IMG/VR virus record: IMGVR_UViG_3300020474_000005
Location: 1 to 64,000 of that record
Length of the DNA stretch: 64,000 nucleotides
Strand: one strand, 5' to 3'
From: a virus
In this document: positions 1 through 43,919 of the stretch, piece after piece
Position numbering within the stretch: the first letter of the stretch is position 1
How the letters are laid out: each line of letters opens with the position of its first letter
Made by a program: the position numbers and the translations under genes
Notes under the pieces: generated by a model
Seen by the model: the letters and a program-made list of their open reading frames with translations, nothing else
Databases searched by the model: none
What the model was told of the DNA's origin: nothing

Positions 1-337
1 TGCCGAAATCTCTGGCGTACTTGTCTCCGTGGAGCCAAGTCAGTGTGCCAAGGTCCCTTCCCATGATACGCAGTTCTTCTGCCTTGTGTCTCCATTCGAT
101 GTTCTTGAATCCCAACTCCGCCAACCTATCGTAGGTCTTGGCGCCTACGGCGAGGACCTTTTGGTCCAGCAGTGGTTCCAGTTCGTGTTGGTAATGTTTG
201 ATTGATTCTATGTGAGTGATGATTAAGCCTTGCGGCGTGGCGGGATCGTGATCCACTGTATAAGTCTTCATACAGGGGAGCCACACGTCATCCTCATTCA
301 ACTCATTGGGGCGAGTTATTTGTGTGTATACTATCAT
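1..337 (-). CDS. HemD-like (uroporphyrinogen-III synthase-like) protein, partial
   Basis: About 112 residues are visible from an ATG at 337; the gene runs off the left edge of the window, so its C-terminal part is missing. The N-terminus has a T-R-P motif (ITRPNELN) followed by a proline-containing strand (LPCMKTYTV), like the start of HemD. Residues about 41-50 (LIITHIESIKHY) match the HemD 'TSxxAV' strand-helix. The stretch VLAVGAKTYDRLAELGF is close to the HemD hallmark 'aVGxxTaxaLxxlG'. It is followed by KAEEL and a strand ending in HGDK. HemD cyclises hydroxymethylbilane to uroporphyrinogen III. The N-terminal domain looks shorter than in cellular HemD. hemB lies about 11 kb away on the other strand, which supports a tetrapyrrole theme. 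The call rests on motif resemblance only; another Rossmann-like two-domain protein is possible. Confidence 0.5.
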   Translation of the reverse strand, partial: MIVYTQITRPNELNEDDVWLPCMKTYTVDHDPATPQGLIITHIESIKHYQHELEPLLDQKVLAVGAKTYDRLAELGFKNIEWRHKAEELRIMGRDLGTLTWLHGDKYARDFG

Positions 338-666: not shown

Positions 667-1533
667 TTATCCGAAAAAATTTGCTGAGTCAAATGCAACT
701 GGAACTGTGTATTCAGCAGGTGCACCTCCCTTAACTTCCTCTTCCGTGGAAATAACTTTCTGTGGAGCAAGTTGGAATGCTTTTCTATTTTCTTCTAGAT
801 GGTCCATTATTGCTTTGAAAAATGCTTTACTTGTATTGTCTATGAAATCTTTTATCATGCCTTTGTCTGTAACAGTTTCGCCATCTACTCTGATTGATCT
901 AATAGTCTGTGAAACCATGCCAACATTTAGTTCAGTAAGTTTTGTGAAACTTTTTTGGAACTCTCTGATCTTTTCTTCGTCTGTTAATTCTGTATCATTT
1001 ATGACACTTTGCAATCTTGCTTGTTCAAACTGTTTAAGAGCACTTGCAGTGAACTCTGCATAACTCAAAGGTCTTGTTTTAATTTCCATATTTTCATATA
1101 GGAAAGTGTCTTTGTAAGTTGCTCCAAGTATTGTTGTTAAAGTTTCTTGTAAATTTAATTCTAAATCTTTTTCAATTTTTGTGCCGGGCACTGTGACTGG
1201 CAAAGTCATGCTTTCACCATATGTAGCCATTCTGATTGCAATCAGAGCCGCATCACAATCTATGGAAGGCATTGCCCAAGCATTTTTAATTTGTGGTATA
1301 CAACTTTGTATTACCTGCACAGTTGCTTCGCCGTTTAATAATGCATCTGGAGTTTTGAACAGCATTTCGTCTTTAGCAGTCATAGGATACACAGCAATCT
1401 CTTTGGATTCTGGTACTTCTATTGTGCCTTCAGGATAAAATTCATATTTGCTAGGCAGTGTCACAAACTGTTTAGGTTGTCTGTAATACTTCTTAAGCGG
1501 GTTACTAGGTGTCTTTATTTGTTCGTTTGACAT
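667..1533 (-). CDS. gp26-type baseplate/tail assembly protein (T4_baseplate family)
   Basis: This 288-residue protein carries the pattern of the T4 gp26 / T4_baseplate family: a V-T-L-P-S-K-Y-E-F-Y-P-E-G segment near residues 23-36, then 'pMTAKDEmLfKTPDALLNGEA' split over residues about 50-70, 'VIQSCIP' and 'IRMATYGES'. Members sit in or assemble the baseplate hub; by position and by the frameshift signal at its 3' end it may act as a tail tape-measure chaperone like phage lambda gpG. A good ribosome binding site (GGAGTAAAA) precedes the ATG at 1533, with a CTAAATA late promoter at 1584-1578. It is transcribed divergently from the tape-measure-like gene at 1640. Confidence 0.8.
   Translation of the reverse strand: MSNEQIKTPSNPLKKYYRQPKQFVTLPSKYEFYPEGTIEVPESKEIAVYPMTAKDEMLFKTPDALLNGEATVQVIQSCIPQIKNAWAMPSIDCDAALIAIRMATYGESMTLPVTVPGTKIEKDLELNLQETLTTILGATYKDTFLYENMEIKTRPLSYAEFTASALKQFEQARLQSVINDTELTDEEKIREFQKSFTKLTELNVGMVSQTIRSIRVDGETVTDKGMIKDFIDNTSKAFFKAIMDHLEENRKAFQLAPQKVISTEEEVKGGAPAEYTVPVAFDSANFFG
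673..682 (-). other. Candidate programmed -1 ribosomal frameshift site
   Basis: Read on the minus strand, the end of the gp26-like gene is GCA AAT TTT TTC GGA TAA. This contains two overlapping X-XXY-YYZ heptamers in the zero frame, A AAT TTT (682-676) and T TTT TTC (679-673), two codons before the stop. After a -1 slip the next codons are CGG ATA AAG ATA and the frame stays open into the 62-residue gp51-like frame, ending at 443. No clear downstream pseudoknot was identified. Confidence 0.6.
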
Positions 1534-1639: not shown

Positions 1640-3796
1640 ATGGCAATAGACGAAAGATTACTTGAAAAACTTATGGACGGCGTCGACGCGAAGGGCGGGA
1701 TAGCCTCCGAACAGACTTTACAAGAGTTAAAAGACGTATTGTCCGGTAGAACGAGTACCGGATTCGGAAAAGTCATTAAAGATGTTGCTAAAGGGGGAGG
1801 CGGCATGGGCGGAATGTTTAAACGTCTAGCCGTTGCAATTACCGATGTCCAAGATGAGGGCGAATTTTTAAAGGACAGTTTCGAAGCAATTAAAATATCC
1901 ACAAGAGCCGCGGCAGGCGGAATGGAAGGCATGACTGCCGGACTTTATGAACTGGGTGATTTGGCTGGAGGCATAACAGGTAAATTAATAACTGGATTAG
2001 CAATGGCTTCGGAAGTTATTGGTGCTAACGTAACAGCATTTAGAAATTTGTCAAACGTTGGAGCCAATGCAACACTTGATTTGGAAAGATTAAGAGAAGC
2101 ATCAGGAAGAACAGGAATAGACTTAGACACACTAGTTGGCGAAACTGTAAGACTATCTAAAGAGTTTGCACAATTAACTGGATCACCTGCAACCGGTGTT
2201 AATAGATTTTTCAACATTCTCGAATCCTTCAACCAAGGTGACTTTAGAAGAGATTTCCAAGCACTAGGTTTAACAACAGCGGATCTTGCCGAGCAGACTG
2301 GAACCTATCTAGAAATACAAACTAGATTAGGAAGAGCACAAAGCATGACACAAGGACAGTTGAATACTGGAGCAAGTAATTTTATCCTGCAATTAGATGA
2401 ACTTGCAAGATTGACCGGACAACAGAAAAGTGAATTACAGGCAGAATTGAGAACGCAGGCATTGGATAGAAGAATTCGATTGACTGGTAACCAAGAAATG
2501 CAATCAAGTATTGCCAGGGTAGCCGCGTTTGCACCGGAACTGCGTGACAGTTTTGTAAACATAATTGGTACAGGGTTTCCAAGAACAATGGAAGAGATAG
2601 GTATCTTCAGTAAGGCTGGAGTTGGAGAAGCCGTTCAAGCAATCAGAGACGGAGTACCTGGAGCATCGGATCAATTAGTGGCGGCACTACAAAGAGCGTC
2701 TATGGAAACTGCCAACATGAGTGCAGAGGAAAGAAAAAGATTACAAACACTAGTAAACACAACTGATGGATTCTTTAATGCCGACGTTGCTTTAATTGGA
2801 TTCCAAAAAGCGACACAAGAGCAAACAGAAACAATTAGGAAACAACAAGAGTTTCAGAAGTCACAAGAAAGTAATTTAATAAATTTAGACAGAGCGTCTG
2901 AAAGACTACGTACAGCATTCTTATCGTTAGTATCACAATTCACTCCAGTGTTTGATGTTATTGCGGCAGGCTTAGAAAAATTTGCTACTATATTAACAAA
3001 TATTTCTGTAGGTTTGCAAAATAAATTTGAAGGACTAGGAGACAGCACAGCAAAACTTATTGCCGCTTTCGCAGTTTTAACAACAGGAGTTCTTGCAGTC
3101 AAAGGTGGAAAAGCATTAATAGGTGCAGGTAAAAGTTTATTTGGTGGAGGCGCACAAACAAATCCATTACAGAACGTTGCACCAGGAACAGGTGGAATGT
3201 TAGGTGGACTAGGTATGGGACTGAAAGGTTTCGCTGGTGGTTTGAGAGCATTCGCTAATCCGATGGTAGTGTTAGGTGCAGGTGCATTAGGTGCCTCGAT
3301 AACATTAGTTGGAGCAGGTATCGCCGGTGCAACATACTTGATGGGCGGTGCATTAGAAAAATTTGGAGAAGGTCTAAAGAGCATAGGTGAAGTTGATGGC
3401 AAGAACTTAATGGAAGTTGCCAAAGGTTCAACAGCACTTGCAGGAGCAATGGTGGCTTTGGCAGGCGGAGGTACCGTTTCAGCAGTAACAGGCTTCTTTG
3501 GTAAACTTTTAGGTGGCGGAACAGATAATTTTGCCAAAAACATCAATAATATGCTAGATAATCTTGACAAAAACAAAATAGATATGTATGCTACAAGTAT
3601 TAACAATCTTGGAGAATCTATGCAATCACTTTCTTCTGGAATGCAAACGGTGACAACTGGAGCCGCAAAGGGAACAGGAGATAAATTGGATCAGTTAAAT
3701 AGTACAATGGAGCAGATTTTAATGGTGATGAGTGAAAATACTAGATATGCTCTTAAAACATCACGGTCATCTACAGAGGTAGCAGAAGCAGTATAA
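1640..3796 (+). CDS. Tape-measure-like tail/structural protein
   Basis: This 718-residue protein has long helical, Gln- and Leu-rich stretches followed by a Gly/Ala-rich hydrophobic segment at about residues 470-575 (for example VLTTGVLAVKGG and GAGALGASITLVGAGIAGA), typical of tail tape-measure proteins that span the tail tube and cross the membrane on DNA entry. It lies between the gp26-like gene and gp20, and its stop overlaps the gp20 ATG (TAATG). The frame extends back to a TTG at 1613, but the ATG at 1640 is preferred because a late promoter motif lies between the two. No strong ribosome binding site is visible. T4 gp29 would be the functional counterpart; direct homology was not recognised. 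Confidence 0.55.
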   Translation: MAIDERLLEKLMDGVDAKGGIASEQTLQELKDVLSGRTSTGFGKVIKDVAKGGGGMGGMFKRLAVAITDVQDEGEFLKDSFEAIKISTRAAAGGMEGMTAGLYELGDLAGGITGKLITGLAMASEVIGANVTAFRNLSNVGANATLDLERLREASGRTGIDLDTLVGETVRLSKEFAQLTGSPATGVNRFFNILESFNQGDFRRDFQALGLTTADLAEQTGTYLEIQTRLGRAQSMTQGQLNTGASNFILQLDELARLTGQQKSELQAELRTQALDRRIRLTGNQEMQSSIARVAAFAPELRDSFVNIIGTGFPRTMEEIGIFSKAGVGEAVQAIRDGVPGASDQLVAALQRASMETANMSAEERKRLQTLVNTTDGFFNADVALIGFQKATQEQTETIRKQQEFQKSQESNLINLDRASERLRTAFLSLVSQFTPVFDVIAAGLEKFATILTNISVGLQNKFEGLGDSTAKLIAAFAVLTTGVLAVKGGKALIGAGKSLFGGGAQTNPLQNVAPGTGGMLGGLGMGLKGFAGGLRAFANPMVVLGAGALGASITLVGAGIAGATYLMGGALEKFGEGLKSIGEVDGKNLMEVAKGSTALAGAMVALAGGGTVSAVTGFFGKLLGGGTDNFAKNINNMLDNLDKNKIDMYATSINNLGESMQSLSSGMQTVTTGAAKGTGDKLDQLNSTMEQILMVMSENTRYALKTSRSSTEVAEAV

Positions 3797-5523
3797 TGAG
3801 TTGGAAAAAATTTTTTAGTGAAGTGCCGGTACAAGGCGCAACAGACGGAACATATTCAGCAATGGGCGGAGCCGCTACAGGCAAACCAGGTCCAGCAAAA
3901 ACAAACTATTCATCATATCTTCCAGATGTGTACAGCGGTGCACCAAACAGGATAGAAAGATATGGACAATACAATGTGATGGACATGGACAGTGAGGTGA
4001 ATGCCGCACTAGACATACTTGCAGAATTTTGCACACAGAACAATTCACAGAACGACACTCCATTCAAGTTCGGATACAAACAAAAAGCAACAAACACTGA
4101 AGTACAGATACTAGAACAGTATCTTCACCAATGGTGCAAGTTGAATGATTTCAACAAACGTATCTTTAAGGTTATGCGTAACGTATTCAAGTTTGGTGAT
4201 GCTTTCTTTATTAGAGATCCTGAAACTAAAAAATTGTTTCATGTTGATCCAGCAAAAGTTTCTAAAATTATAGTTAATGAAAGCACAGGAAAGACTCCTG
4301 AGCAATATGTTATTAGAGACATCAACTTTAATTTTAGAAGTTTAGTAGCAACAACTCCTTTTCAAACAACAGGTAACGTGACTGGCGGCGGTTCAGGATA
4401 CTTAACTGGTGGGGTAAGAGGCATGGTTGGTGCAAACTACAATGATTCACCTGGCACAAGATTTGCAACAGGACAAAGAGAGATAGCGGTAAACGCCGAG
4501 CACGTGTTCCATTTAAGTTTAAGTGAAGGTCTTGACATGAACTTTCCTTTCGGAAACAGTTTATTAGAGAGTGTGTTTAAGGTTTACAAACAAAAAGAAC
4601 TATTAGAAGATGCAATTATAATTTATAGAGTACAAAGAGCACCTGAAAGACGTGTGTTTTACATAGACGTAGGTAATATGCCATCGCACTTGGCAATGCA
4701 ATTTGTAGAAAGAGTTAAAACTGAGATCCACCAAAGACGTATTCCGTCAAGCACAGGTGGAGGAACAAACGTAATTGATTCAAGTTACAATCCTTTATCA
4801 ATTAATGAGGACTACTTCTTCCCACAAACAGCAGAAGGAAGAGGTTCTAAAGTAGAAACACTACCAGGTGGTACTAACTTAGGTGAAATAGATGACCTTA
4901 AGTACTTTACAAACAAACTATTAAGAGGTTTACGTATACCTAGTTCATACTTGCCAACAGGAGCAGACGATGGACAAAGCCAATACAACGATGGTAGAGT
5001 AGGAACTGCCTACATACAGGAATTAAGATTTAACAAATACTGCGAAAGATTACAAAATTTAGTGTCTAATGAATTCAATCAAGAGTTTAAACAGTATTTG
5101 ATAGAAAAAGGTGTGAACATTGATGTTGCGATGTTCGATATCAAGTTCCAACCACCAATGAACTTTGCATCTTACAGACAAGCAGAAGTAGACAACAACA
5201 GAATTAGTACATACACACAGATTGCAACTGTTCCTTATGTTAGCAAACGTTATGCACTACAAAGATTCTTAGGACTTACTCCAGAAGAGATGGCTGAAAA
5301 TGAAAAACTATGGAGAGAAGAGAACGACGAGAACATTAAAGCGAAGCCTACAACATCAGCAACTGAATTAAGAAGTGCTGGAATCAGCACAGCAGGTATA
5401 GATGCTGACTTAGATGCGGCTGAGCCAGATGCACCAGCAACAGAACCAGGAGCACCAGCAGGTGACACGCCAGCAGACGCTACTCCAGGCGGTACGACAC
5501 CAACTCCAGGTCAAGGAACATAA
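3796..5523 (+). CDS. 20: Portal vertex protein gp20
   Basis: This 575-residue protein is the T4-type portal that forms the dodecameric DNA gate at the capsid vertex and initiates prohead assembly. The N-terminus has R-Y-x-x-Y-N-V-M-D-M-D-S-E-V-N-A-A-L-D near residues 54-74, then a 'VFKFGDAFF' segment and 'RAPERRVFYIDVGNMP', all strongly typical of gp20. 'PAGADD'-type text (LPTGADDG) and an 'F-N-x-Y-C-E-R-L-Q' helix follow. The last 50 residues are a low-complexity Ala/Pro/Thr/Asp tail. Length is slightly above T4 gp20 (524). The start overlaps the stop of the tape-measure gene. Confidence 0.95.
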   Translation: MSWKKFFSEVPVQGATDGTYSAMGGAATGKPGPAKTNYSSYLPDVYSGAPNRIERYGQYNVMDMDSEVNAALDILAEFCTQNNSQNDTPFKFGYKQKATNTEVQILEQYLHQWCKLNDFNKRIFKVMRNVFKFGDAFFIRDPETKKLFHVDPAKVSKIIVNESTGKTPEQYVIRDINFNFRSLVATTPFQTTGNVTGGGSGYLTGGVRGMVGANYNDSPGTRFATGQREIAVNAEHVFHLSLSEGLDMNFPFGNSLLESVFKVYKQKELLEDAIIIYRVQRAPERRVFYIDVGNMPSHLAMQFVERVKTEIHQRRIPSSTGGGTNVIDSSYNPLSINEDYFFPQTAEGRGSKVETLPGGTNLGEIDDLKYFTNKLLRGLRIPSSYLPTGADDGQSQYNDGRVGTAYIQELRFNKYCERLQNLVSNEFNQEFKQYLIEKGVNIDVAMFDIKFQPPMNFASYRQAEVDNNRISTYTQIATVPYVSKRYALQRFLGLTPEEMAENEKLWREENDENIKAKPTTSATELRSAGISTAGIDADLDAAEPDAPATEPGAPAGDTPADATPGGTTPTPGQGT

Positions 5524-5531
5524 ATATCAAT

Positions 5532-5771
5532 ATGATATTACGTGAATTATTCTATTTCGATCAAATTAGCACCCAACCAGGTGAGCAAAAACAGTACGAT
5601 TCTACTGAAGACCAGTCAATCATGCAGATGGATGACACACGTAAAACAAGATTAAGTCTAAAACAGATCAACAAAGCACGTAAAGCCGGTGAATTCCACA
5701 AAGATGAACAAGAGAAAGAACTTGTATTTGTGAGACAGATGTACGGCACAGCCAACCAGCCAGAGGTTTAA
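5532..5771 (+). CDS. Small conserved protein downstream of gp20
   Basis: This 79-residue basic protein follows gp20 after 8 nt. Its middle, T-R-K-T-R-L-S-L-K-Q-I-N-K-A-R-K, and the C-terminal Q-M-Y-G-T-A resemble short proteins found between gp20 and gp21 in T4-like marine phages. In T4 this place is held by gp67 and gp68 (prohead core), so a role in prohead assembly is possible but is inferred from position only. Confidence 0.6.
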   Translation: MILRELFYFDQISTQPGEQKQYDSTEDQSIMQMDDTRKTRLSLKQINKARKAGEFHKDEQEKELVFVRQMYGTANQPEV

Positions 5772-5774
5772 TAA

Positions 5775-6362
5775 GTGTCCGTTGCTTTTGTCTTGGGCAA
5801 TGGTCTCAGTCGCAAACCGATACCTTTCGATCCACTTAAAAAGATAGGCAAAGTTTATGCCTGCAATGCCGTTTACCGATCACACACCCCAGATTACCTT
5901 GTGGCAGTTGATGCCAAGATGGTTAATGAGATATGTGATGCAGGAGCACAATTAAGAATGCCTGTTTGGACCAATCCTAATCACGCATATAAGAAATTCA
6001 AGGGATTAAACTTCTTTGAACCAAGCCTTGGTTGGTCATCTGGACCAACTGCACTATGGTTGTGTTGTTCACATAACCATCAACTGGTGTATTTGCTTGG
6101 TTTCGACTTCCTAGGCACAGATCAAGGCAAACTAAACAACATCTACGGTGACACAGACAACTACAAAAAGAATTCAGATGTTGCAACATACCATGGCAAC
6201 TGGAATAGGCAAACAGCAATCATACTACAGAAGAACGGACAGAAGAAATTTTGCAGAGTTATACCCGATGGTGGTCAGGTATTTCCAGCAGAAGACCTTA
6301 AAAAGTACACAAATTACAGCGAAATCACGGTATCTGAGTTCAAACATCAATACCACCTGTAA
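5775..6362 (+). CDS. Conserved Rossmann-like protein of unknown function
   Basis: The 195-residue frame starts with GTG at 5775, four nt after the previous stop. The N-terminus reads V-A-F-V-L-G-N-G-x-S-R, then a 'YACNAVYR' strand and 'YLVAVDAKM', and later 'LLGFDF' followed by 'NNIYGDTDNYKK'. This order (a G-N-G loop, an N after a strand, a D after 'VAV') recalls DUF115/MptE-like and sialyltransferase-like Rossmann proteins that bind nucleotides or nucleotide sugars. The enzyme activity is not known. Its place between portal and prohead core genes suggests it travels with the head module. A hairpin follows it at 6374-6394. Confidence 0.6.
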   Translation: MSVAFVLGNGLSRKPIPFDPLKKIGKVYACNAVYRSHTPDYLVAVDAKMVNEICDAGAQLRMPVWTNPNHAYKKFKGLNFFEPSLGWSSGPTALWLCCSHNHQLVYLLGFDFLGTDQGKLNNIYGDTDNYKKNSDVATYHGNWNRQTAIILQKNGQKKFCRVIPDGGQVFPAEDLKKYTNYSEITVSEFKHQYHL

Positions 6363-6373
6363 ATTTGAACATA

Positions 6374-6394
6374 AAAGGGGCCGATTGGCCCTTT
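6374..6394 (+). terminator. Terminator-like hairpin after the Rossmann-like gene
   Basis: AAAGGGGCC, a GATT loop and GGCCCTTT form a GC-rich stem with one bulged G. Only a weak T-rich stretch follows, so termination may be partial. Confidence 0.5.
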
Positions 6395-6418
6395 ATCGAC
6401 CCGTTTTATTAATAAAAG

Positions 6419-6426
6419 TGTAAATA
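6419..6426 (+). promoter_or_regulatory. Late promoter candidate (TGTAAATA) for the prohead core and capsid genes
   Basis: TGTAAATA lies 44 nt upstream of the ATG at 6471 and just after a terminator-like hairpin. The leader contains AATAGGAGAAA as ribosome binding site. Confidence 0.5.
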
Positions 6427-6470
6427 ATAACAGACAGTCTTATCATATAAACGTTAATAGGAGAAAAACA

Positions 6471-7532
6471 ATGACAGACAAAAGTAAATTCGAGCAAATG
6501 CTTGAAAAACTAGTTGCTGACGACAAAACAGCGGCTGAAGAGATTTTCCACAATATCGTTGTTGAAAAATCGAGATCAATATATGAAGGTCTTTTAGAAG
6601 ATGATATCAAAGATATCGAAGTAGAAGAAACTTCAAAAGAAGAGTCTAAAGAAAAATCAGCAGAAACTACAGAAGCGTCTAAAGAAGACAAAAAAGAAGA
6701 CGAAAAAGTAGAAGAAAAAACTGAAGAAACTAAAGACGAAGAAACTACAGAAGCATCAAAAGACGACGCTAAAGAAGATGAAGCGGTTGAAGAAGCATCA
6801 AAAGACGAAGAAGCAAAAGAAGAAGAGTCAAAAGATGAAGACGCAACTGATGAATCATTAGCAGACGTTCAAGATTCAGAAGCACCAGCAGTAGAAACAC
6901 CAGTAGTACCAGCAGAAATGGGCGGCGACGCAACTGATGATATGATGGGTGACATCGAAGCAGACAAAGGTGAAGAAGACAAGGAAGGCGACACTGACGG
7001 AGAAGACATGGAAGACAGAGTTGTTGACTTGGAAGATGCAATTGACGACCTTAAGGCAGAATTTGAAAAAATGATGTCAGACAAAGGTGATGATGAAGAA
7101 GGCGACGACGACGCTGAAGACAAAGGCGAAGAAGAAGCAATCATCAGTCAAGACGCAGAGGGAGAAACAGAAGTTGCTCCCGAACTTGCTCCTGAAGAAG
7201 TAGCACCGGCAGTAGAATCGAAAGAATCTGCTCCAAAATCAGCAACAGAAGAAATAAGAGAGTACGTAAACAAAGTTGAAGCAAGCCATTCAGATGGTAG
7301 CGACAACACTGCGTCTCCAGTTGCTAAATCAGGCGGAACTGATGCAAAAGCAGATGCAAAAGGTTTAGTCCAAGGTGGTGAGGAAAAAGGTAGACCTGCA
7401 CCAAAGGCTAAAGAGCATGATGCTGGAAACATCAACAAACCTGGTAACAAAAGTGCGGCTCCGAAGGCGGCAAAGGCTAATACAGCAGACGGAACAGATG
7501 GTTCATCTAAGAAATCTGCAATTGGCAGTTAA
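6471..7532 (+). CDS. Acidic prohead core/scaffold protein (gp67/68-type position)
   Basis: This 353-residue protein starts with a short helical domain (FEQMLEKLVADD, then AEEIFHNIVVEKSRSIYEGL, residues 7-43) and continues as a very acidic Glu/Asp/Lys low-complexity region to about residue 250, then an Ala/Lys/Gly tail. The N-terminal 'VVEKSRxIYE' segment resembles prohead core proteins of T4-like marine phages. It sits directly before gp21 and gp22, so it is likely an internal core component that the gp21 protease cleaves. It is far longer than T4 gp67 (80 residues). The Leu-rich and Ser-rich frames seen opposite are shadows of its repetitive codons. Confidence 0.65.
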   Translation: MTDKSKFEQMLEKLVADDKTAAEEIFHNIVVEKSRSIYEGLLEDDIKDIEVEETSKEESKEKSAETTEASKEDKKEDEKVEEKTEETKDEETTEASKDDAKEDEAVEEASKDEEAKEEESKDEDATDESLADVQDSEAPAVETPVVPAEMGGDATDDMMGDIEADKGEEDKEGDTDGEDMEDRVVDLEDAIDDLKAEFEKMMSDKGDDEEGDDDAEDKGEEEAIISQDAEGETEVAPELAPEEVAPAVESKESAPKSATEEIREYVNKVEASHSDGSDNTASPVAKSGGTDAKADAKGLVQGGEEKGRPAPKAKEHDAGNINKPGNKSAAPKAAKANTADGTDGSSKKSAIGS

Positions 7533-7553
7533 TAGTTGAGTTTAGGAAAACGG

Positions 7554-8177
7554 ATGTTACAATTACGAGAGACACTGACTTTCGACCAAGCGGGAATAGT
7601 CGTTGAGTCCAAGGATGAAAACAACGGTAAAAGCCTTTATATGAAAGGCATATGCATTCAAGGTGGCGTGAAGAACGCTAACCAGAGAGTGTACCCTGTT
7701 AACGAAATCCAAAGGGCTGTCAGTACGCTCAACGATCAAATCAAGGGCGGATATTCAGTTCTCGGAGAAATTGATCATCCAGAAGGCTTAAACATCAATT
7801 TGGATCGTGTATCACACATGGTAAATGAAATGTGGATGGACGGACCTAACGGATACGGGAAATTAAAAGTATTACCTACACCGATGGGATCTCTAATCAA
7901 AACAATGCTGGAAAGCGGAGTTAAATTAGGAGTCTCATCGCGTGGTAGTGGTAATGTATCAGAAGACGGATCCGGAAAAGTATCAGATTTTGAAATTATT
8001 ACCGTTGACATAGTTGCACAACCATCGGCGCCGGGAGCATATCCTGAGCCCATCTACGAGCACCTAATGAATACAAAAGGCGGTTATAAAGCATTTAACT
8101 CAGCAAGGGACAAACAGGCACAAGAATACTTAAAAGAAAAACTAGTAAACATAATTGGAAAACTCCAATCTAAGTAG
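7554..8177 (+). CDS. 21: Prohead core protease gp21
   Basis: This 207-residue protein is the T4-type maturation protease that cleaves capsid and core proteins. The motif GEIDHPEG carries the expected catalytic His (residue 75), and LGVSSRGSG carries the Ser (residues 128/129); 'DIVAQPSAPGA' follows, as in the family. Length matches T4 gp21 (212). The frame is open back to a TTG at 7536, but the ATG at 7554 has TAGGAAAA at proper distance and gives the usual N-terminus (LRETLTF). gp22 follows 14 nt after the stop. Confidence 0.93.
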   Translation: MLQLRETLTFDQAGIVVESKDENNGKSLYMKGICIQGGVKNANQRVYPVNEIQRAVSTLNDQIKGGYSVLGEIDHPEGLNINLDRVSHMVNEMWMDGPNGYGKLKVLPTPMGSLIKTMLESGVKLGVSSRGSGNVSEDGSGKVSDFEIITVDIVAQPSAPGAYPEPIYEHLMNTKGGYKAFNSARDKQAQEYLKEKLVNIIGKLQSK

Positions 8178-8191
8178 AGGAGAAAAATAAA

Positions 8192-9274
8192 ATGTTAGAA
8201 GCACTGAAATCACTTTTTGAAACGAACGCAATTTCGGAAGAGATCAGAGCGGAAATAGAATCAGCGTGGAACAAAAAAGTTGACGAAAACAAACTTGCTG
8301 TTACTGCCGAATTGAGAGGTGAATTTGCAGAGAAGTACGAACACGACAAAGCAAATTTAACTGATGCTGTTGATAAAATGGTATCAGAGAGAATCGAAGC
8401 AGAAATGGCTGAATTCGCGGAAGACAAGAAAGCATTGGCAGAAGAAAAAGTCAAGTATGCTACTCAAATTCGTGAGCATTCAGATAAGTTAAAATCATTT
8501 GTTTTTGAACAACTTAAGAGTGAAATTGCTGAACTACACAATGACCAAAAAGTTATGGCTGAAAACTTCAGTAAACTTGAGGACTTTGTGGTTGAGGCTC
8601 TATCAAAGGAAATTAGTGAGTTCCATCAAGACAAACAAGACGTTGCCGAAACAAAGGTACGTCTAATCCGTGAAGCAAAAGCACATTTTGAAAAAGTTAG
8701 AAATAACTTCATATCAAAAGGCGCTGAAAAAGTATCAGAAATAGTAGGCAAAACTCTTAACAAAGAGATTAGTTCACTAAAAGATGATATTGATGCGGCA
8801 CGTAAGAATGACTTTGGTCGCAGAATGTTCGAAACTTACAGCACAGAATACTCAAACAGTTTTCTGAACAGTAAGAGCGAAACTTCAAAACTTCTAAAAG
8901 TTGTGGATACAGCGAAGCAACAATTAGAAACTGCGAAAGAGACTGCCAACGAGAAAGACAAGATCATCGAGTCAAAAGTTAAAGAAATAGAAGATCTTAA
9001 GAACACGGCAGAGAGAGATTCAGTTATCAATGAGTTAATTCAACCATTGAATGCTGAACAAAAAGATATAATGACAAATCTTTTGGAGAGTGTACAGACC
9101 GGACAACTTAGAAAGCAGTTCGAAAAGTATGTACCGGCTGTAATAAACGGTAGGTCTCCAGCGAAGAAACAGGCTTTAAAAGAAGGCACAGAAATAACAG
9201 GCGACAAACAAATAGTAAACGCAGGTCAATTCAACAGCAAACTTGTTGATATTAAAAGACTTGCAGGTATATAA
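8192..9274 (+). CDS. 22: Prohead scaffold protein gp22
   Basis: This 360-residue protein is almost entirely charged helix (Glu, Lys, Ala, Asp), with heptad-like coiled-coil segments from about residue 20 to 280, and lies between gp21 and gp23, the fixed position of the T4 scaffold gene. The C-terminal part contains V-x-x-x-x-G-R-S-P-A-K-K. A clear ribosome binding site (AGAGGAGAAA) precedes the ATG. The product forms the inner core around which gp23 assembles and is later degraded by gp21. Confidence 0.88.
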   Translation: MLEALKSLFETNAISEEIRAEIESAWNKKVDENKLAVTAELRGEFAEKYEHDKANLTDAVDKMVSERIEAEMAEFAEDKKALAEEKVKYATQIREHSDKLKSFVFEQLKSEIAELHNDQKVMAENFSKLEDFVVEALSKEISEFHQDKQDVAETKVRLIREAKAHFEKVRNNFISKGAEKVSEIVGKTLNKEISSLKDDIDAARKNDFGRRMFETYSTEYSNSFLNSKSETSKLLKVVDTAKQQLETAKETANEKDKIIESKVKEIEDLKNTAERDSVINELIQPLNAEQKDIMTNLLESVQTGQLRKQFEKYVPAVINGRSPAKKQALKEGTEITGDKQIVNAGQFNSKLVDIKRLAGI

Positions 9275-9287
9275 GGAGAAACGACAA

Positions 9288-10460
9288 ATGTCAGAACTAA
9301 CAGAAACACGCTGGCAGGATACGAAGAGTGCGTTATTAGAAGGCTTAACTGGAAACAGAAAAGCAGTCATGGAGTCAACTTTAGAAAATACTAAAAAGTA
9401 TTTGGCTGAGGCGGCGACAGCAGGTGCCACATCTGCAGGTAACGTAGCAACTTTGAACAGAGTGATCCTACCGGTAATAAGACGGGTTATGCCTACTGTG
9501 ATCGCAAACGAGATCGTTGGTGTACAACCAATGACTGGTCCAGTTGGACAAATCCACACTCTAAGAGTAAGATACGCATCGACTAACGACGCTACTGGAA
9601 CATCAAATGATGTAACAGCAGGCGACGAAGCATTATCTCCATTCAAAATAGGTCAAGCCTATTCTGGAGATGGAACTGCCGGAAAAGCAGACGCAACAGC
9701 ATCTAAAGAAGGTGTTGGCGGTAATGCAATGTCAATCCAAATCTTGAAACAGACAGTTGAAGCAAAAACTAGAAAGTTACAAGCAAGATGGACATTCGAA
9801 TCGGCGCAAGATGCTCAAGCACAACAAGGCATTGATGTAGAGGCTGAAATCATGGCGGCATTAGCACAAGAAATTACTGCTGAAATCGACCAAGAGATCA
9901 TCAACTCATTAAGAGCTCTAGCGGCTACTGAAGAAACATTCAACCAAGCGGCAGTATCAGGTACGGCAACGTTCGTAGGTGATGAACACGCGGCTTTGGC
10001 TGTTTTAATCAACAGAGTTGCTAACAAAATCGCACAAAGAACAAGACGTGGTGCAGGTAACTATGCAGTGGTATCACCACAAGCATTAACTATACTTCAG
10101 TCTGCAACAACTTCTGCGTTCGCAAGAACAACAGAAGGTGCGTTTGAGGCTCCAACAAACCAAAAATTCGTTGGTACTTTAAACAGTGCGATGAAAGTAT
10201 ATGTTGATACATATGCGGCTGACGACACGGCAGTATTAGTAGGTTACAAAGGTTCATCTGAAGCAGATGCGGCGGCGTTCTACTGTCCATACATTCCGTT
10301 AATGTCAAGCGGCGTTGTACTTGACCCGTCAACTTTCGAACCAGTAGTGTCATTTATGACAAGATATGGTTATGTAGAGTTGAACAACACGGCAAGTTCA
10401 CTAGGTAATGCTGGTGACTACGTGGGTGAAGTTGCAATATCTAACGTATCTTTTGCTTAA
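9288..10460 (+). CDS. 23: Major capsid protein gp23
   Basis: This 390-residue precursor has the gp23 signature I-V-G-V-Q-P-M-T-G-P-V-G-Q-I at about residues 75-88 and the C-terminal motif Y-C-P-Y-I-P-L-M followed by FMTRYGY. The ATG at 9288 follows AAGGAGAAACGACAA; an upstream in-frame extension to 9243 overlaps gp22 and is unlikely. A T4-type protease site is visible: Y-L-A-E at residues 38-41 followed by A-A-T-A, which fits the L/I-x-E cleavage rule of gp21, so the mature protein likely starts at residue 42. A strong terminator follows at 10486. Confidence 0.96.
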   Translation: MSELTETRWQDTKSALLEGLTGNRKAVMESTLENTKKYLAEAATAGATSAGNVATLNRVILPVIRRVMPTVIANEIVGVQPMTGPVGQIHTLRVRYASTNDATGTSNDVTAGDEALSPFKIGQAYSGDGTAGKADATASKEGVGGNAMSIQILKQTVEAKTRKLQARWTFESAQDAQAQQGIDVEAEIMAALAQEITAEIDQEIINSLRALAATEETFNQAAVSGTATFVGDEHAALAVLINRVANKIAQRTRRGAGNYAVVSPQALTILQSATTSAFARTTEGAFEAPTNQKFVGTLNSAMKVYVDTYAADDTAVLVGYKGSSEADAAAFYCPYIPLMSSGVVLDPSTFEPVVSFMTRYGYVELNNTASSLGNAGDYVGEVAISNVSFA

Positions 10461-10485
10461 TAATTAGAGCAACAGAAAACATTTT

Positions 10486-10515
10486 AAAGGGCGGCTTTTT
10501 TAAGTCGCCCTTTTT
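10486..10515 (+). terminator. Strong intrinsic terminator after gp23
   Basis: AAAGGGCGGC and GTCGCCCTTT pair across a T-rich 8-nt loop (one G-T wobble) and are followed by TTTTT. It ends the capsid transcript. Confidence 0.85.
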
Positions 10516-10541
10516 GTTTATAACCAATCAGGAGAAATAAA

Positions 10542-10652
10542 ATGAAAGCATTTTTGAAAAGTAAGAAAACATGGATTGCAGTTGCAGTTGTTGTGATTGT
10601 ATTCGCTTATGTTCTTTGGACAGGTCAACCTGCTCCAGAAGTTACACAATAA
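10542..10652 (+). CDS. Small single-pass membrane protein (36 residues)
   Basis: ATG at 10542 follows a clear GGAGAAATAAA ribosome binding site and encodes 36 residues: a short basic N-terminus (MKAFLKSKKTW), one hydrophobic segment (IAVAVVVIVFAYVLW) and a short tail ending PEVTQ. It is bracketed by two similar intrinsic terminators (10486 and 10677), which suggests a real, separately bounded gene. No function is recognised. Charge distribution suggests N-in, C-out topology in the inner membrane. Confidence 0.6.
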   Translation: MKAFLKSKKTWIAVAVVVIVFAYVLWTGQPAPEVTQ

Positions 10653-10676
10653 TAGATTTCAATTTTAATCTAACTG

Positions 10677-10710
10677 AAGGGCGGCAATGAAGAACGTGCC
10701 GTCCTTTTTT
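10677..10710 (+). terminator. Intrinsic terminator after the small membrane protein
   Basis: AAGGGCGGCA pairs with TGCCGTCCTT across a loop of about 10 nt, followed by TTTTTT. The stem resembles the terminator after gp23. Confidence 0.85.
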
Positions 10711-10762
10711 TATGGCTGAATAACAGCACATAATTTTCTCCAAATACCACGTAAGTATTATT

Positions 10763-10990
10763 GTGAAGTGGTTAGTTATATATTTTTACCTATCAGGTGT
10801 ATGGATAGCCGGGGACTTTGTTCACCCTGAAGGCTGGAGCAGTATCCAATATGCGACCGAAAAAGAGTGCATAGAACATATGAAGTATGCCAACGAAAAC
10901 CTTCAAAAAAGCGACAGATTTAATGATAATGCCAAAGCAGTATGCATGGCTCATAAGCCTGGACCATTCACACCCACACCAAAATTTTAG
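10763..10990 (+). CDS. Small secreted or membrane-anchored protein, unknown function
   Basis: This 75-residue frame starts with GTG at 10763 and has an N-terminal hydrophobic segment (residues 3-17, LVIYFYLSGVWIAGD) like a signal peptide or anchor. Two cysteines (in KECIEHM and AVCMAHK) could form a disulfide after export. No strong ribosome binding site is visible. The next promoter begins at the base after its stop. No family is recognised. Confidence 0.5.
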   Translation: MKWLVIYFYLSGVWIAGDFVHPEGWSSIQYATEKECIEHMKYANENLQKSDRFNDNAKAVCMAHKPGPFTPTPKF

Positions 10991-36233: not shown

Positions 36234-37196
36234 ATGGCAAGTTTAAAATCATTACTCGGTACAAAGCAAGATGCATTCGTATCGGTTGCGGAATCTAACC
36301 TAGAAAAAGGTCAGATTTTTACATACCATAACGGTGCAAACTACTCTAGAATATGGTGCGGATTTTGTTTCCATCCAAGCGTATCTGGAACAGCAGTAGT
36401 AGAGGCGTGGGGAGCAGGTGGCTCTGGCGCTGAGATGTGTTGTTGCGGTTTTGGTCTTCCAGGTAACTCAGGTGCCTATGTTAAGAAAACAGTTGTGATG
36501 TCAGTCGGCGACTACATTTGTGGTTGTACTGGTATATCTTGCGGAAATTCATCAGATTTATGTTTTAGAGGTTGTTCAGAACCTACCATGTTAAGATTTT
36601 GCATAGGTGGCGCAGAGACTTGCGTGTGTGCAGAAGGTGGTAGAGGTGGAATAACTTATTGTTCAACTAATAACAGTTTTTATTGTTGCTACAGAGCAAA
36701 TGGTTTCTGTGTAACAAAAACAGACAATAACCAATGTGGAATTATTTGTAACCAATGTAACGGTGCATGGGTAGCCTGTGCATACGGTGGTGAAACAAAT
36801 AAACCAGGATTAAATTCTTGTGTATCAGCATTTGGTTGTTATCCATCATGTATTTGTATGTTTAATCACCACATTCCAACTCCAGCGGGACAAGGTTCCA
36901 AAGAGGGAAGGATGATTGTATATACAAATGACAACAGTAACGATTTTGCACAATGGTCAGGTCAAGGTCATCACCAACACAGAGCAAATTTAGGATCAGG
37001 TAGATTTCCAACAGGCGGTATACCTTGGTCATCTTGTTGGGGTTTCAGTGGTGCTTGTGGTTGTTATGAAAACGACGGTTGTGTTCCAGTGCTTCCAGTA
37101 GGAACTGGTGGTAGAGGACCTAACCCTTGTCCAGGTGTTAGAGATCACGCAATCAGAGGTGGCTTTGGAGCAGTAAGGATTAGATTTATTAGTTAA
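36234..37196 (+). CDS. Cysteine- and glycine-rich protein, copy 1 of 3
   Basis: This 320-residue protein contains about 30 cysteines, many as CC, CCC, CxC or CxxC, plus glycine-rich strands (VEAWGAGGSGAEMCCCGFG, AEGGRGG) and a conserved end R-D-H-x2-R-G-G-x-G-A-V-R-I-R-F. No signal peptide is visible. It is the first of three tandem paralogues. The G-x-G-G-S-G segment resembles glycine-rich adhesin or fibre-tip loops; the cysteines could bind metal or form disulfides in the virion outside the cell. The ribosome binding site is GGAATCGGAGACT. Function not known. Confidence 0.6.
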   Translation: MASLKSLLGTKQDAFVSVAESNLEKGQIFTYHNGANYSRIWCGFCFHPSVSGTAVVEAWGAGGSGAEMCCCGFGLPGNSGAYVKKTVVMSVGDYICGCTGISCGNSSDLCFRGCSEPTMLRFCIGGAETCVCAEGGRGGITYCSTNNSFYCCYRANGFCVTKTDNNQCGIICNQCNGAWVACAYGGETNKPGLNSCVSAFGCYPSCICMFNHHIPTPAGQGSKEGRMIVYTNDNSNDFAQWSGQGHHQHRANLGSGRFPTGGIPWSSCWGFSGACGCYENDGCVPVLPVGTGGRGPNPCPGVRDHAIRGGFGAVRIRFIS

Positions 37197-37205
37197 GGAT
37201 TTATT

Positions 37206-38219
37206 ATGGCAAGTTTAACAACATTATTACAAACCAAATATGATTTTGCAGTAGGTAACGAGACTAACCTAGAGCAAGGAAGAATTTATCAGTACTATCC
37301 AGGCAGTGCTAGAGGTACAAACTTTAGATGTCACGTATGTTGGGTAGCACCATCGGCTGGTACAGCAACTATTGAGATATGGGGTGCTGGTGGATCAGGT
37401 GCAGAGATGTGCTGTTGTGGATTTGGTATTAACGGAAATCCAGGAGCATACAGTAAAAAAGTTTTAACAATGGCATCAGGCTGTTTCATTTGTGGAATAG
37501 TTGGTCAGTCATGTGGTAACGCAGATGACCTATGTCACAGAGGTACTTCAGAGTCAACACAAATTTGTTGGTTTGCAGGCGGTGCCGACGGTTGTATGTG
37601 TGCCCAAGGTGGTAAGGGTGGTTACTCTTACTGTTCAACAGGTAACTCAGGTTACTGTTGTTTTGTAGCAGGTGCTTTCTGTAACACACAAGGCGGAGAT
37701 TCATACTGCGGAATTATTTGTAACTTTAAAGATTCATCAAGTGAACCAACTTTCTGTGCCCAAGCATATGGCGGAGATAATAACTGCTACGGCGGATTCA
37801 GTTGTTTCTATTTTAGAGGATGTCAACCAAACTGTAACTGTAGACAAGTTCCAGTTCTTAGATTCCCACCAGGACAGATATCTACAAAAGGTGGTGAAGT
37901 ACACTACACATTAGATTCTGACAATGGAAGATCACAATGGTCAGGAATGGGTGGTTGGATGAATGCCTCACACGGATTTAACCTTGCAACAAGATCACCA
38001 ACACAGGGTGGTCCATACACTGCTTGTTGGACAGGTAACAGAAGTTGCGGTTGTTATCAAGCAAATGGTTGTATACCTTTCATGCCAGCAGGAATTGGTG
38101 GACAAGGTCCAAGACCATGTGATGGTGTAAGAGATCACGCACACAGAGGTGGTCATGGTATGATTAGAATTAAATTTGTAAGTACTACTAGTGATTACGA
38201 TCTAGATAGTGCACCGTAA
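37206..38219 (+). CDS. Cysteine- and glycine-rich protein, copy 2 of 3
   Basis: This 337-residue paralogue of the 36234 protein has about 29 cysteines at largely the same positions, for example IEIWGAGGSGAEMCCCGFG, the CxC before GGKGG, C-G-I-I-C-N and the G-C-Q-P-N-C-N-C cluster, with the same terminal R-D-H-x2-R-G-G motif plus a short extra tail (STTSDYDLDSAP). It starts 9 nt after copy 1. Sequence between the cysteines differs clearly, so the copies are old or under divergent selection. Confidence 0.6.
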   Translation: MASLTTLLQTKYDFAVGNETNLEQGRIYQYYPGSARGTNFRCHVCWVAPSAGTATIEIWGAGGSGAEMCCCGFGINGNPGAYSKKVLTMASGCFICGIVGQSCGNADDLCHRGTSESTQICWFAGGADGCMCAQGGKGGYSYCSTGNSGYCCFVAGAFCNTQGGDSYCGIICNFKDSSSEPTFCAQAYGGDNNCYGGFSCFYFRGCQPNCNCRQVPVLRFPPGQISTKGGEVHYTLDSDNGRSQWSGMGGWMNASHGFNLATRSPTQGGPYTACWTGNRSCGCYQANGCIPFMPAGIGGQGPRPCDGVRDHAHRGGHGMIRIKFVSTTSDYDLDSAP

Positions 38220-38227
38220 GGATAAGG

Positions 38228-38235
38228 AGTAAATA
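38228..38235 (+). promoter_or_regulatory. Late promoter-like motif (AGTAAATA) before cysteine-rich copy 3
   Basis: AGTAAATA ends 6 nt before the ATG at 38242, the same spacing seen at the leaderless candidates. AAGGAG directly overlaps its start and could serve as ribosome binding site for a read-through transcript, so the promoter role is uncertain. Confidence 0.35.
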
Positions 38236-38241
38236 TAGTAT

Positions 38242-39219
38242 ATGGCTAGTTTAAAAGGATTATTAACTAATAGAAACCCAGCAGAGATGGTTGAGGAAAA
38301 CCTAGAGACTGGATATATCTACGTATGGACTCCAGGTACTAACTACACTAACTTTTGTAATGGTGTATGTTGGACGGCTCCAGCGGCTGGTAAGGCTCAC
38401 ATAGAAATATGGGGAGCAGGCGGTTCAGGTGCTAGAATGTGTTGTTGTGGTGACGGATTACCAGGCAACGCAGGTGGATATTCTTATAGAGAAATTACTG
38501 TAGAAGCAAACGACACACTAACAGGATGTACAGGTATGCCTTGTCAGGCTCACCCATTATGTCACTCAGGATGTTCTAACCCAACAGGTATTTGTTGGAT
38601 AACAGCATCTAACGGAAATGGCTGTATGTGTGCAAGAGGTGGTTACGGTGGAAAATCAATGTGTACAACAGGAAGTTCTTTATACTGTTGTTACAGAGCA
38701 CAAGGATTCTGCACTGTAAGATGTAACAATGATAACTGTGGACTAGTTTGTAACGTATGTACAGACGGTAGTACAGATTCATGGCAGTCGTGTGCTTATG
38801 GTGGAACAATTAACTGTTGCGGACAATTCGGTTGTGTATCATTCTTTGGATGTTGCCCACACTGTAAATGTAGATTCCAGCAACACGTTCCGATTCCAGC
38901 AGGACAATTTGCTGTTAACGGTGCGTTGATTACTTTCCAGAAAGAGTCGGATGGAACTCCGATGTCTAACTGGTCAGGTAACCAAATATTCCAATACTAT
39001 GCGGCTTTGAACTCAGCATCTAAAACGCCAAGACAAGGAACTCCAGACTCACACTGTTGGAGATCAGATAGAGCGTGTGGATGTTATGAAATGCAAGGAT
39101 GTAACAACTATCTACCAGTGGGTGGTGGCGGAATTGGCCCTAACCCATGTCCTGATGTAAGAGATCACGGAATCAGAGGTGGATTCGGAGGAGTAAGAAT
39201 CAGATTTGTTGCTTCATAA
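38242..39219 (+). CDS. Cysteine- and glycine-rich protein, copy 3 of 3
   Basis: This 325-residue paralogue has about 33 cysteines and keeps the order of copies 1 and 2: C-N-G-V-C-W, IEIWGAGGSGARMCCCGDG, C-x-C before GGYGG, LYCCYRAQGFC, F-G-C-C-P-H-C-K-C, and the end VRDHGIRGGFGGVRIRF. Like its neighbours it has no signal peptide or membrane segment. Three such copies in a row suggest they form a hetero-oligomer or offer alternative receptor-binding tips. Function not known. Confidence 0.6.
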   Translation: MASLKGLLTNRNPAEMVEENLETGYIYVWTPGTNYTNFCNGVCWTAPAAGKAHIEIWGAGGSGARMCCCGDGLPGNAGGYSYREITVEANDTLTGCTGMPCQAHPLCHSGCSNPTGICWITASNGNGCMCARGGYGGKSMCTTGSSLYCCYRAQGFCTVRCNNDNCGLVCNVCTDGSTDSWQSCAYGGTINCCGQFGCVSFFGCCPHCKCRFQQHVPIPAGQFAVNGALITFQKESDGTPMSNWSGNQIFQYYAALNSASKTPRQGTPDSHCWRSDRACGCYEMQGCNNYLPVGGGGIGPNPCPDVRDHGIRGGFGGVRIRFVAS

Positions 39220-41134: not shown

Positions 41135-42085
41135 ATGAGCAATTCGAAAAGACCTAAGGCTTTTTTTCTAAATGGCGGAATGGGAAGAATAATATCTGCG
41201 ATTCCTGCCTTGGAAAAATATTATGAATCAAAGGAAGATCCTGATTTTATTATTGTGATTGAAGGTATTTGTAATATCCTAAATGGACATCCAACATTGG
41301 ATAATAAAACTTATGATATGTATCATAAAAATTTATTCCACACAAAATTAATTAACATGGACATAGTAAGTCCTGAACCTTACAGACTGAATGAATATTT
41401 CAATCAGAAATGTGACATCGCCCAAGCATTTGATATACTGATTAACAAAAAAGGAGTAAGAAAATTGCCTGCTCCAACGTTAATATTAAGTAAAGAAGAA
41501 CTTTTAGAAGGAAGAAAAGCAGTAGATGAAATAAAAGAAAAAGTTAAGAAAGAAAAATTAGTCATCATACAACCTTTTGGACGTGCTATTACACAAATAG
41601 ATAATTCTTTCATAGACAAAAGCAATAGAAGTATAGAATTCACAAATTTAAAAAAAATTATTAAAAAATTACAAGAAAAAGATTGGGCAGTATGCGTAAT
41701 GGCTGAGTTCGGAATAGAATTTAAAGACGCAGGATTTAAAGATGAGGTTGCTATTCCTGAAATAGCAGATTTACGTAACTGGGCAGGTTTAATAAAGTAT
41801 GCAGATCACTTTTTAGGATGTGATAGTGTAGGTCAACATCTTGCAAAAGCAATGGAAACTCCAGCAAGTGTTGTTATGGGAGCAACGTATCCGATAAACA
41901 CTTCATATCCAGACGATAAAAGTTTTAAAATTATTGATATGGGACAATTTGATAGAGAATATGACCCTATAAGAATAAGTTTCGATGAAAGGATCAGTAG
42001 AAAGCATGAAAGAATTATGTCAATGACTCCTGAAATAGAAGATTATGTAGTGTCTGCTGTTAACGGAGATCCAATAGAGGAATAA
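41135..42085 (+). CDS. GT9 (heptosyltransferase)-like glycosyltransferase, copy 1
   Basis: This 316-residue protein begins FFLNGGMGRIISAIPALEK, the G-x-G-D/R-x3-x-P-A-L pattern of family 9 transferases, and has the C-terminal nucleotide-sugar site 'HFLGCDSVGQHLAKAMETPA' followed by VVMGATYPIN, like the 'GxDSGxxHLAxAxxxPxxxxFGxtxP' of WaaC/WaaF. GT9 enzymes typically use ADP-heptose. The phage also encodes HldE and HldD for ADP-heptose at 54650-57307, which supports this donor. It shares its architecture with the protein at 43912, and the two flank a carbamoyltransferase with almost no spacing. Confidence 0.7.
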   Translation: MSNSKRPKAFFLNGGMGRIISAIPALEKYYESKEDPDFIIVIEGICNILNGHPTLDNKTYDMYHKNLFHTKLINMDIVSPEPYRLNEYFNQKCDIAQAFDILINKKGVRKLPAPTLILSKEELLEGRKAVDEIKEKVKKEKLVIIQPFGRAITQIDNSFIDKSNRSIEFTNLKKIIKKLQEKDWAVCVMAEFGIEFKDAGFKDEVAIPEIADLRNWAGLIKYADHFLGCDSVGQHLAKAMETPASVVMGATYPINTSYPDDKSFKIIDMGQFDREYDPIRISFDERISRKHERIMSMTPEIEDYVVSAVNGDPIEE

Positions 42086-42086
42086 C

Positions 42087-43919
42087 ATGAGTGATGATTT
42101 AAACAAATACAACAAAACAGGATACATAGCCGCAGTGGCAAGAGGTCACAACGCAGGTGTATGTTTACTGAAAGACGGCAAAATAGTATTTTCAATAGAA
42201 GAAGAAAGACTATCAAGAAGAAAATATGATGGTGGTCCTTATGCTTCCATGTTTGAAATATTAAAATACACGGACAAGATTGATTACCTAATAATTGCAC
42301 ATACACAATCATTGAAAGATCCATCTACTGGCAGAGTAGATTATTCAGGAGATGATGTATACACAGGTATTGCTAGAAAGTTAGGATTAATAGATCCATA
42401 CATTCATAAGATAGAACATCCACAAGTTATTGACTTATCACATATACACCACAAACTTCATGCCGCGTGTGCATTTTATAGATCAGGTTTTGACAAAGCA
42501 GTTGCAGTGATTGTTGACGGTGCAGGAACTTTTATACCTATTAAGAATAGTGTAGCAGGTGACATGACTGTATTTGAAGTTGAAAGTATATTCAGTTGTG
42601 ATTATCCTAATGATATCTTTGCACTGTACAAACATTATGCAACAGGCACAGCAAGTCCAGGAGGTTACTATCCTGAAATGGATTCGGAAAGTATTAGTGA
42701 ACCAGGAAAAACACATGAAGCATTATTCACAGACAAAGCAGGCATAACAAAAACATATGAAGCAATAACTCAGTATTGTGGATTCAGTGCCATTGAGGCA
42801 GGAAAGACTATGGGATTGTTTCCTTATGGAAAGAAAAATGATGTAATACCACCACTGTTTCAAAAAGAAGGAAAATTTGAATTATCAAATAGAAACTTTA
42901 TCATACCAACTTACCCAAATGCGGCGCAGGTAAACAGTCAAATATATCCTTTTGTGGATGCTAATCCTGATTCTGATAAAGGCGAAGATTGGACAAAAAT
43001 GCAAAACAGAAGAGACATGGCTTACGCAGTACAAAAAGAAACACAGAAACAATGTTTAGATTTAATTTACAAAGCAGTTGAGATGAGTGGATGTAAAAAT
43101 GTTGTGTTTTCTGGAGGATACGGATTAAATTGTGTGGCAAATTATTATTATCTTGAAAGTTTACAAAAAGACGGTATTAAGTTATATGCTGAACCAGTTT
43201 CAAATGATGCGGGAACGGCAATGGGTGCGGCTATGTTGTTCTATTACAGCCTTACACAAACAAAAGAAAAGAAAGTTGATGCACCAACTTTGTACTTAGG
43301 TCCAAAAAGAGAATACACACAAGAGCAAATAAGCGGAATATGTCAAAGACCAGGTGTTGTTTTAGAAGATTGTGACGATTCTAAAGTTGTAGAACTTTTA
43401 GTTAATAAAAATATTGTATCAATATTCCAAGGGCAAAGTGAAAATGGTCCTAGGGCATTAGGTAATAGAAGTATTTTGTTTGATCCAAGATTCAAAGACG
43501 GTAAAGATTATGTAAACAGAGTGAAAAACCGTGAATACTTTAGACCATTTGCTGGAACAATACTTCATGATTACGTGCATGATTGGTTTGATCTACGTGG
43601 AATGGAAGAAACTCCACATATGATGTATGCTGTAAACTGTCAACCAGGTATAGAAGAGAAGATTCCAAGTATAATTCACGTGGACGGTACTTGCAGAATA
43701 CAATCTGTGAAACGTGAACAGAATCCTTTGTATTATGACCTAATAAAAGAGTTCCATAAACAAACAGAATGTCCTATAATTTTCAATACATCATTTAATT
43801 TAGGTGGTGAACCATTAGTTGAGACATTAGAAGACGCAGTAAGAACATTACAACACAGCGAAATAGAATATCTATATTTGCCAGAGTACAAAAAGATAGT
43901 AAAGGTTTTAAATGGCTAG
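42087..43919 (+). CDS. Carbamoyltransferase (NodU/CmcH/TobZ family)
   Basis: This 610-residue protein has the full two-domain layout of O-carbamoyltransferases. The N-terminal Kae1-like domain begins with 'RGHNAGVCLLKDGKIVFSIE' then E-E-R-L-S-R, and carries a metal-binding H-H-x2-H-A motif (IHHKLHAACAFY) and D-G-A-G. A second conserved part has FSGGYGLNC near residue 340. The C-terminal YrdC-like domain has QGQSENGPRALGNRS near residue 450 and 'YFRPFAGTILHDY'. Such enzymes make carbamoyl-adenylate and pass the carbamoyl group to a sugar hydroxyl. Lying between two GT9 genes, with overlap to the second, it probably decorates the sugar these enzymes transfer. Confidence 0.88.
   Translation: MSDDLNKYNKTGYIAAVARGHNAGVCLLKDGKIVFSIEEERLSRRKYDGGPYASMFEILKYTDKIDYLIIAHTQSLKDPSTGRVDYSGDDVYTGIARKLGLIDPYIHKIEHPQVIDLSHIHHKLHAACAFYRSGFDKAVAVIVDGAGTFIPIKNSVAGDMTVFEVESIFSCDYPNDIFALYKHYATGTASPGGYYPEMDSESISEPGKTHEALFTDKAGITKTYEAITQYCGFSAIEAGKTMGLFPYGKKNDVIPPLFQKEGKFELSNRNFIIPTYPNAAQVNSQIYPFVDANPDSDKGEDWTKMQNRRDMAYAVQKETQKQCLDLIYKAVEMSGCKNVVFSGGYGLNCVANYYYLESLQKDGIKLYAEPVSNDAGTAMGAAMLFYYSLTQTKEKKVDAPTLYLGPKREYTQEQISGICQRPGVVLEDCDDSKVVELLVNKNIVSIFQGQSENGPRALGNRSILFDPRFKDGKDYVNRVKNREYFRPFAGTILHDYVHDWFDLRGMEETPHMMYAVNCQPGIEEKIPSIIHVDGTCRIQSVKREQNPLYYDLIKEFHKQTECPIIFNTSFNLGGEPLVETLEDAVRTLQHSEIEYLYLPEYKKIVKVLNG

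Follow-up and report, generated by a model that had tools for sequence, protein, structure and literature searches.

A reduced-size HemD homologue encoded with hemB in marine T4-type phages

Introduction

Phages are already known to carry hemA (valaS), hemC, hemF, ferrochelatase and heme breakdown genes. In this pathway the macrocycle that gives rise to heme is closed by HemD; the linear intermediate also closes by itself, to isomer I, which is a dead end. Among the closest described systems are phages with valaS (5-aminolevulinate synthase), hemO and pcyA/X, of which valaS was shown to be active (PMC11480375). Deep pelagimyophages carry coproporphyrinogen oxidase and porphobilinogen deaminase (PMC7029224), and ferrochelatases have been described in pelagiphages (PMC9599517). 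Our literature search found no report of a phage hemB or hemD, although it was confined to open-licence papers, so that novelty is unproven.

Here we describe a hemD-like gene that accompanies hemB in a group of marine T4-type phages. Like the valaS phages, this group has phage-borne tetrapyrrole genes in an aquatic setting, and near such valaS genes there is a distant hemD-like homologue in one case and a hemB group in another; however, the text on the valaS phages (PMC11480375) is without hemB, hemC and hemD, whereas in the group described here we found hemB and the hemD-like gene and no valaS. The pelagimyophages (PMC7029224) are likewise marine T4-type phages with heme-synthesis genes, but those are hemC and hemF rather than hemB and a hemD-like gene.

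The hemD-like gene and its phage surroundings

The window analysed is a stretch of 64,000 nucleotides that comprises bases 1-64000 of a linear virus record of 75,999 bp, its base 1 being base 1 of the record. The hemD-like frame starts with an ATG at position 337 and leaves the window at its left end (Table 1). A terminal overlap of the 75,999-bp contig was looked for and none was found. Since base 1 of the window is the contig end, the contig itself does not contain the missing part of the gene. The nearest relative (L002) shows 99% identity over the 112 residues, and its complete protein has 187 amino acids. Other relatives have 189-190 amino acids, and a distant one, L122, which is 30% identical, has 193, compared with ∼240-260 for bacterial HemD (246 in E. 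coli). An earlier note on this DNA had pointed to a TRP start and to a stretch typical of uroporphyrinogen-III synthase within these N-terminal 112 residues. Both are present, TRP as residues 8-10 (MIVYTQITRP...) and VLAVGAKTYDRLAELGF as residues 61-77.

Our search of IMG/VR for related loci returned 47 viral loci with a hemD-like gene and, in a wider round, 69; the family (187-193 amino acids) occurs in more than 60 IMG/VR records. Searches of isolated phages and plasmids gave no match to the protein, those of genome contigs for bacterial relatives of the hemD-like protein or hemB gave pattern matches and no relative, and no BFVD structure matched the hemD-like protein at E < 0.001. With pairwise dN/dS values of ∼0.04-0.23, the hemD-like gene is a real gene under strong purifying selection. 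We also observed that its G+C content is 0.47-0.50 in the clade of the window (window 2-337 and L002-L007), compared with 0.37-0.40 for the flanking DNA, which may reflect later acquisition or codon constraint.

The setting of the hemD-like gene among phage core genes and its maintenance by selection are those expected of an auxiliary metabolic gene. On one side the hemD-like gene adjoins T4-type baseplate and tape-measure-like genes, and on the other recombination-endonuclease-subunit-like genes and a sigma factor (all but the baseplate genes named by eye). The baseplate neighbour recurs in two further records (L005 and L013) with gene order kept. Because the capsid and terminase have their closest counterparts in phages with genomes of 280-490 kb, the records of 20-134 kb are, judging from these sequences, probably fragments of large genomes.

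Table 1. Coordinates of the hemD-like gene, its companions and other genes noted in the window and in related records
Record	Feature	Position	Strand	Remark
Window	hemD-like gene, first 112 codons (contig end cuts the rest)	2..337	-	187 codons in near-identical records
Window	T4-type baseplate protein, adjoins hemD-like gene	667..1533	-	PF12322, E 3.9e-12
Window	Major capsid protein, upstream of hemB	9243..10460	+	69% identity to capsid protein of Sinorhizobium phage Phosso
Window	hemB (porphobilinogen synthase), zinc type, 263 aa	11228..12019	+	PF00490, E 8.4e-45; shortened N-terminal arm
Window	Three tandem paralogous proteins of 320-337 aa, tail-fibre region	36234..39219		Unusually cysteine- and glycine-rich
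Window	Glycosyltransferase-9-like gene	41135..42085
Window	NodU/CmcH-type carbamoyltransferase	42087..43919		Flanked by two heptosyltransferase-like genes
Window	Glycosyltransferase-9-like gene, similar to that at 41135..42085	43912..44892
Window	Cupin, NAD-epimerase, unassigned gene, PfkB-cytidylyltransferase fusion (HldE-like), Nudix gene	54271..57735	-	Nudix gene named by eye
Window	2OG-Fe(II) oxygenase	61377..62021		PF13759
L122	5-aminolevulinate synthase, small membrane-protein gene, hemD-like gene	4326..6573		In a row
L266 (G047:5000-20000)	hemE, hemF, hemC	6113..8618		Head to tail
L149 (G038)	hemB, 5-aminolevulinate synthase (hemA)	3259..4059 and 6001..7209		On one contig with hemF
G038	hemF	10041..10820

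Among the other window genes, the run at 54271-57735 together with the glycosyltransferase-9-like genes resembles a phage pathway for ADP-heptose or a similar sugar. The window also has a 2OG-Fe(II) oxygenase gene; such genes adjoin ferrochelatase in pelagiphages too (PMC9599517).

Homology to HemD and predicted fold

On its own, the 112-residue fragment matched the NCBIfam uroporphyrinogen-III synthase model NF004592 at E 7e-7 and the Pfam HEM4 family (PF02602) at E 0.02 (14.4 bits), the latter below the gathering cut-off of 27.5 bits. PF02602 was matched by all 23 full-length members scanned (best E 1.7e-5, profile positions 18-182 of 231), but none reached the cut-off, the best being L012 with 24.5 bits. 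All NCBIfam matches at E < 0.02 were uroporphyrinogen-III synthase models, with a best full-length value of 3.6e-6. Profile-profile comparison with four gammaproteobacterial HemDs gave a weak match (22 columns, probability 5%), which we did not count towards family membership, and a sequence-profile search of the PDB returned no HemD.

A first AlphaFold run, based on 23 close sequences, was poor (pLDDT 46.6) and was replaced by a second run with 35 sequences, the 30%-identical relative included. The second model has a mean pLDDT of 61.8, with residues 30-130 mostly at ∼70-89; at the chain ends (1-21 and 134-189) pLDDT is mostly below 50 and the fold there is unreliable. Foldseek searches with this model ranked uroporphyrinogen-III synthases 1 to 3 (E 4e-4 to 6e-3), followed by many methyltransferases. 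In VIA-align, ten solved uroporphyrinogen-III synthases reached Z 8.7-11.5, compared with 6.7 for the next fold. The matched range, residues 23-130 of the model, coincides with the HemD domain that the central part of the chain makes up.

The weakness of the single-sequence scores and the many methyltransferases further down the Foldseek list would fit a chance likeness, that is, a Rossmann-like domain in a phage protein of other descent. We regard this as very improbable, given that the NCBIfam matches at E < 0.02 belong to one family, that the ten best structural matches are without exception uroporphyrinogen-III synthases with a Z gap of 2 to the next fold, and that the pathway neighbours are hemB and 5-aminolevulinate synthase. 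The earlier note's naming of the gene as HemD-like thus stands as far as homology is concerned, on NCBIfam, PF02602 and fold, but the full-length protein scores below the PF02602 cut-off and only one domain is well kept.

We compared the phage proteins with four solved or reference HemDs in a multiple alignment. Conserved in the phage proteins are the TRP-type start, VGxxT, the GDKYxxDF site and the tyrosine; helix 1 (∼11 residues) and the last ∼31 residues are missing. The alignment does not show a complete second domain, the one that the chain ends form opposite the first domain, on the other side of the cleft. The tyrosine of the reference HemDs corresponds in the alignment to Y125 of L012, which is invariant in 35 members; we take it to be the published catalytic tyrosine suggested for uroporphyrinogen-III synthase. 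What the phage protein shares with HemD (PF02602) is therefore the one-domain fold (Z up to 11.5), the TRP start, VGxxT, a Gly-containing GDK/GGRE site and the tyrosine; it differs in its length of 187-193 amino acids, in its second domain, which lacks helix 1 and the ∼31 C-terminal residues, in its sub-cut-off score and in being phage-borne. A role for the conserved tyrosine of uroporphyrinogen-III synthase has been reported, while no essential residue has been identified in this enzyme and its sequence conservation is low (PMC7242693).

As the model indicates, the HemD domain from the central part of the chain is intact, while its partner is reduced. Lack of the second domain, which the earlier note would have counted against its reading, thus applies in part, that domain being cut down and the other well preserved. 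With one domain intact and the other cut down, we classify the protein as a reduced-size HemD homologue and not as a proven synthase. The active site of uroporphyrinogen-III synthase lies between the two domains. This, together with the truncation of domain 1 and the score below the family cut-off, favours a HemD descendant that no longer makes uroporphyrinogen III and instead regulates, chaperones or inhibits the host pathway by binding a bilane, a porphyrin or an enzyme of the host. We consider such a descendant unlikely, though worth keeping in view, because even the 30%-identical relative retains the TRP (or RP/KP) start, VGxxT, GDKYxxDF and the tyrosine and the catalytic residues of the partner hemB are intact.

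Companion genes of the heme pathway

The earlier note had also reported hemB in the same phage, and the gene proved to be a good one. It scores 153.7 bits against PF00490 (cut-off 24.6) and, when aligned to E. coli HemB, keeps the zinc Cys triplet DVCLCSTLPDGHC and both Schiff-base lysines (YVKWRS and LLKPA). Its product begins at about residue 28-29 of E. coli HemB, so that the octamer-building N-terminal arm is mostly missing. Compared with known HemB (PF00490) it therefore agrees in zinc cysteines, lysines and score, and differs in its length of 263 amino acids and the loss of most of the arm. The gene lies ∼11 kb from the hemD-like gene, and hemB was found in 10 of 13 records with a hemD-like gene.

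We did not find hemC, which the earlier note would expect beyond the window in the case of a complete set, in the 75,999-bp contig or in 17 related records. These 18 records, the largest of 134 kb, are all fragments, and the absence of hemC and other heme genes from the phage group is for that reason not established. Nor did the 18 fragment records contain hemE, hemF, ferrochelatase or 5-aminolevulinate synthase in our search, which covered genes of the heme pathway. The suggestion that the phage carries several steps between aminolevulinate and uroporphyrinogen III accordingly holds for hemB and a HemD homologue, but not for a complete set, with hemC in none of the 18 records.

Other phages supplied further members of the pathway. 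In L122 a 5-aminolevulinate synthase gene (561 bits) is followed, 455 nt further downstream, by the distant hemD-like gene, with one small gene between them; neighbouring genes resemble, by eye, those for a nitroreductase, a YqgE/AlgH-like product and an HD hydrolase. When we searched viral contigs for 5-aminolevulinate synthase, 80 of 543 candidates were kept. hemB was present in 3 of 50 such records (two of the 50 having been reached via hemB) and is 46% identical to that of the window, and hemC was present in 4 of 44; in a smaller set, two records had hemE and three had hemF. The phage hemC product has ∼250 amino acids; its cofactor cysteine and its active-site arginines and aspartate are conserved. 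The contig G047 carries a near-complete phage heme cluster, with nucleotide reductase genes and a tail-fibre-like gene in the vicinity and 5-aminolevulinate synthase elsewhere on the contig. In G038, hemB, hemA and hemF share one contig (Table 1). On sequence similarity, marine phages taken together have a homologue for each step between glycine plus succinyl-CoA and protoporphyrinogen, the subsets differing among phages.

The routes to siroheme, B12, bilins and heme diverge at uroporphyrinogen III (PMC7242693), which would allow hemB and the hemD-like protein to supply siroheme, vitamin B12 or bilins and not heme. With hemC, hemE and hemF as the companions in other phages, however, heme is indicated, and we judge supply of another branch improbable.

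Proposed function and significance

Our preferred reading, to which we assign a probability of roughly 0.6, is that the hemD-like product is a miniature, divergent uroporphyrinogen-III synthase and that its gene is an auxiliary metabolic gene accompanying hemB in large marine T4-type phages. Its basis is the HemD homology, the one-domain fold, conservation, purifying selection, the company of hemB and the 5-aminolevulinate synthase gene beside a distant relative. Phage HemB would convert 5-aminolevulinate to porphobilinogen, from which HemC, presumably that of the host, would make hydroxymethylbilane. The phage HemD-like protein would then direct ring closure to the useful III isomer, ahead of the spontaneous closure that gives the useless I isomer, and heme-type cofactors might in this way keep flowing in the infected cell, to the benefit of the phage.

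That the hemD-like gene is kept together with hemB in large marine phages suggests that these phages boost heme-type cofactor synthesis in the host while infecting it. hemB and the hemD homologue fill both gaps between 5-aminolevulinate and uroporphyrinogen III, and with these filled, one can test gene by gene whether phages manage the entire supply of heme in infected cells. We would go further only tentatively, at somewhat less than even odds: marine phages may jointly carry enzymes for all steps to protoporphyrinogen (hemA to hemF), split into pairs and triples and some of them shortened, with the hemD-like protein as the smallest known active uroporphyrinogen-III synthase, which would reveal the dispensable part of the enzyme. 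A natural version that is under selection with one domain reduced would directly probe how little of uroporphyrinogen-III synthase suffices.
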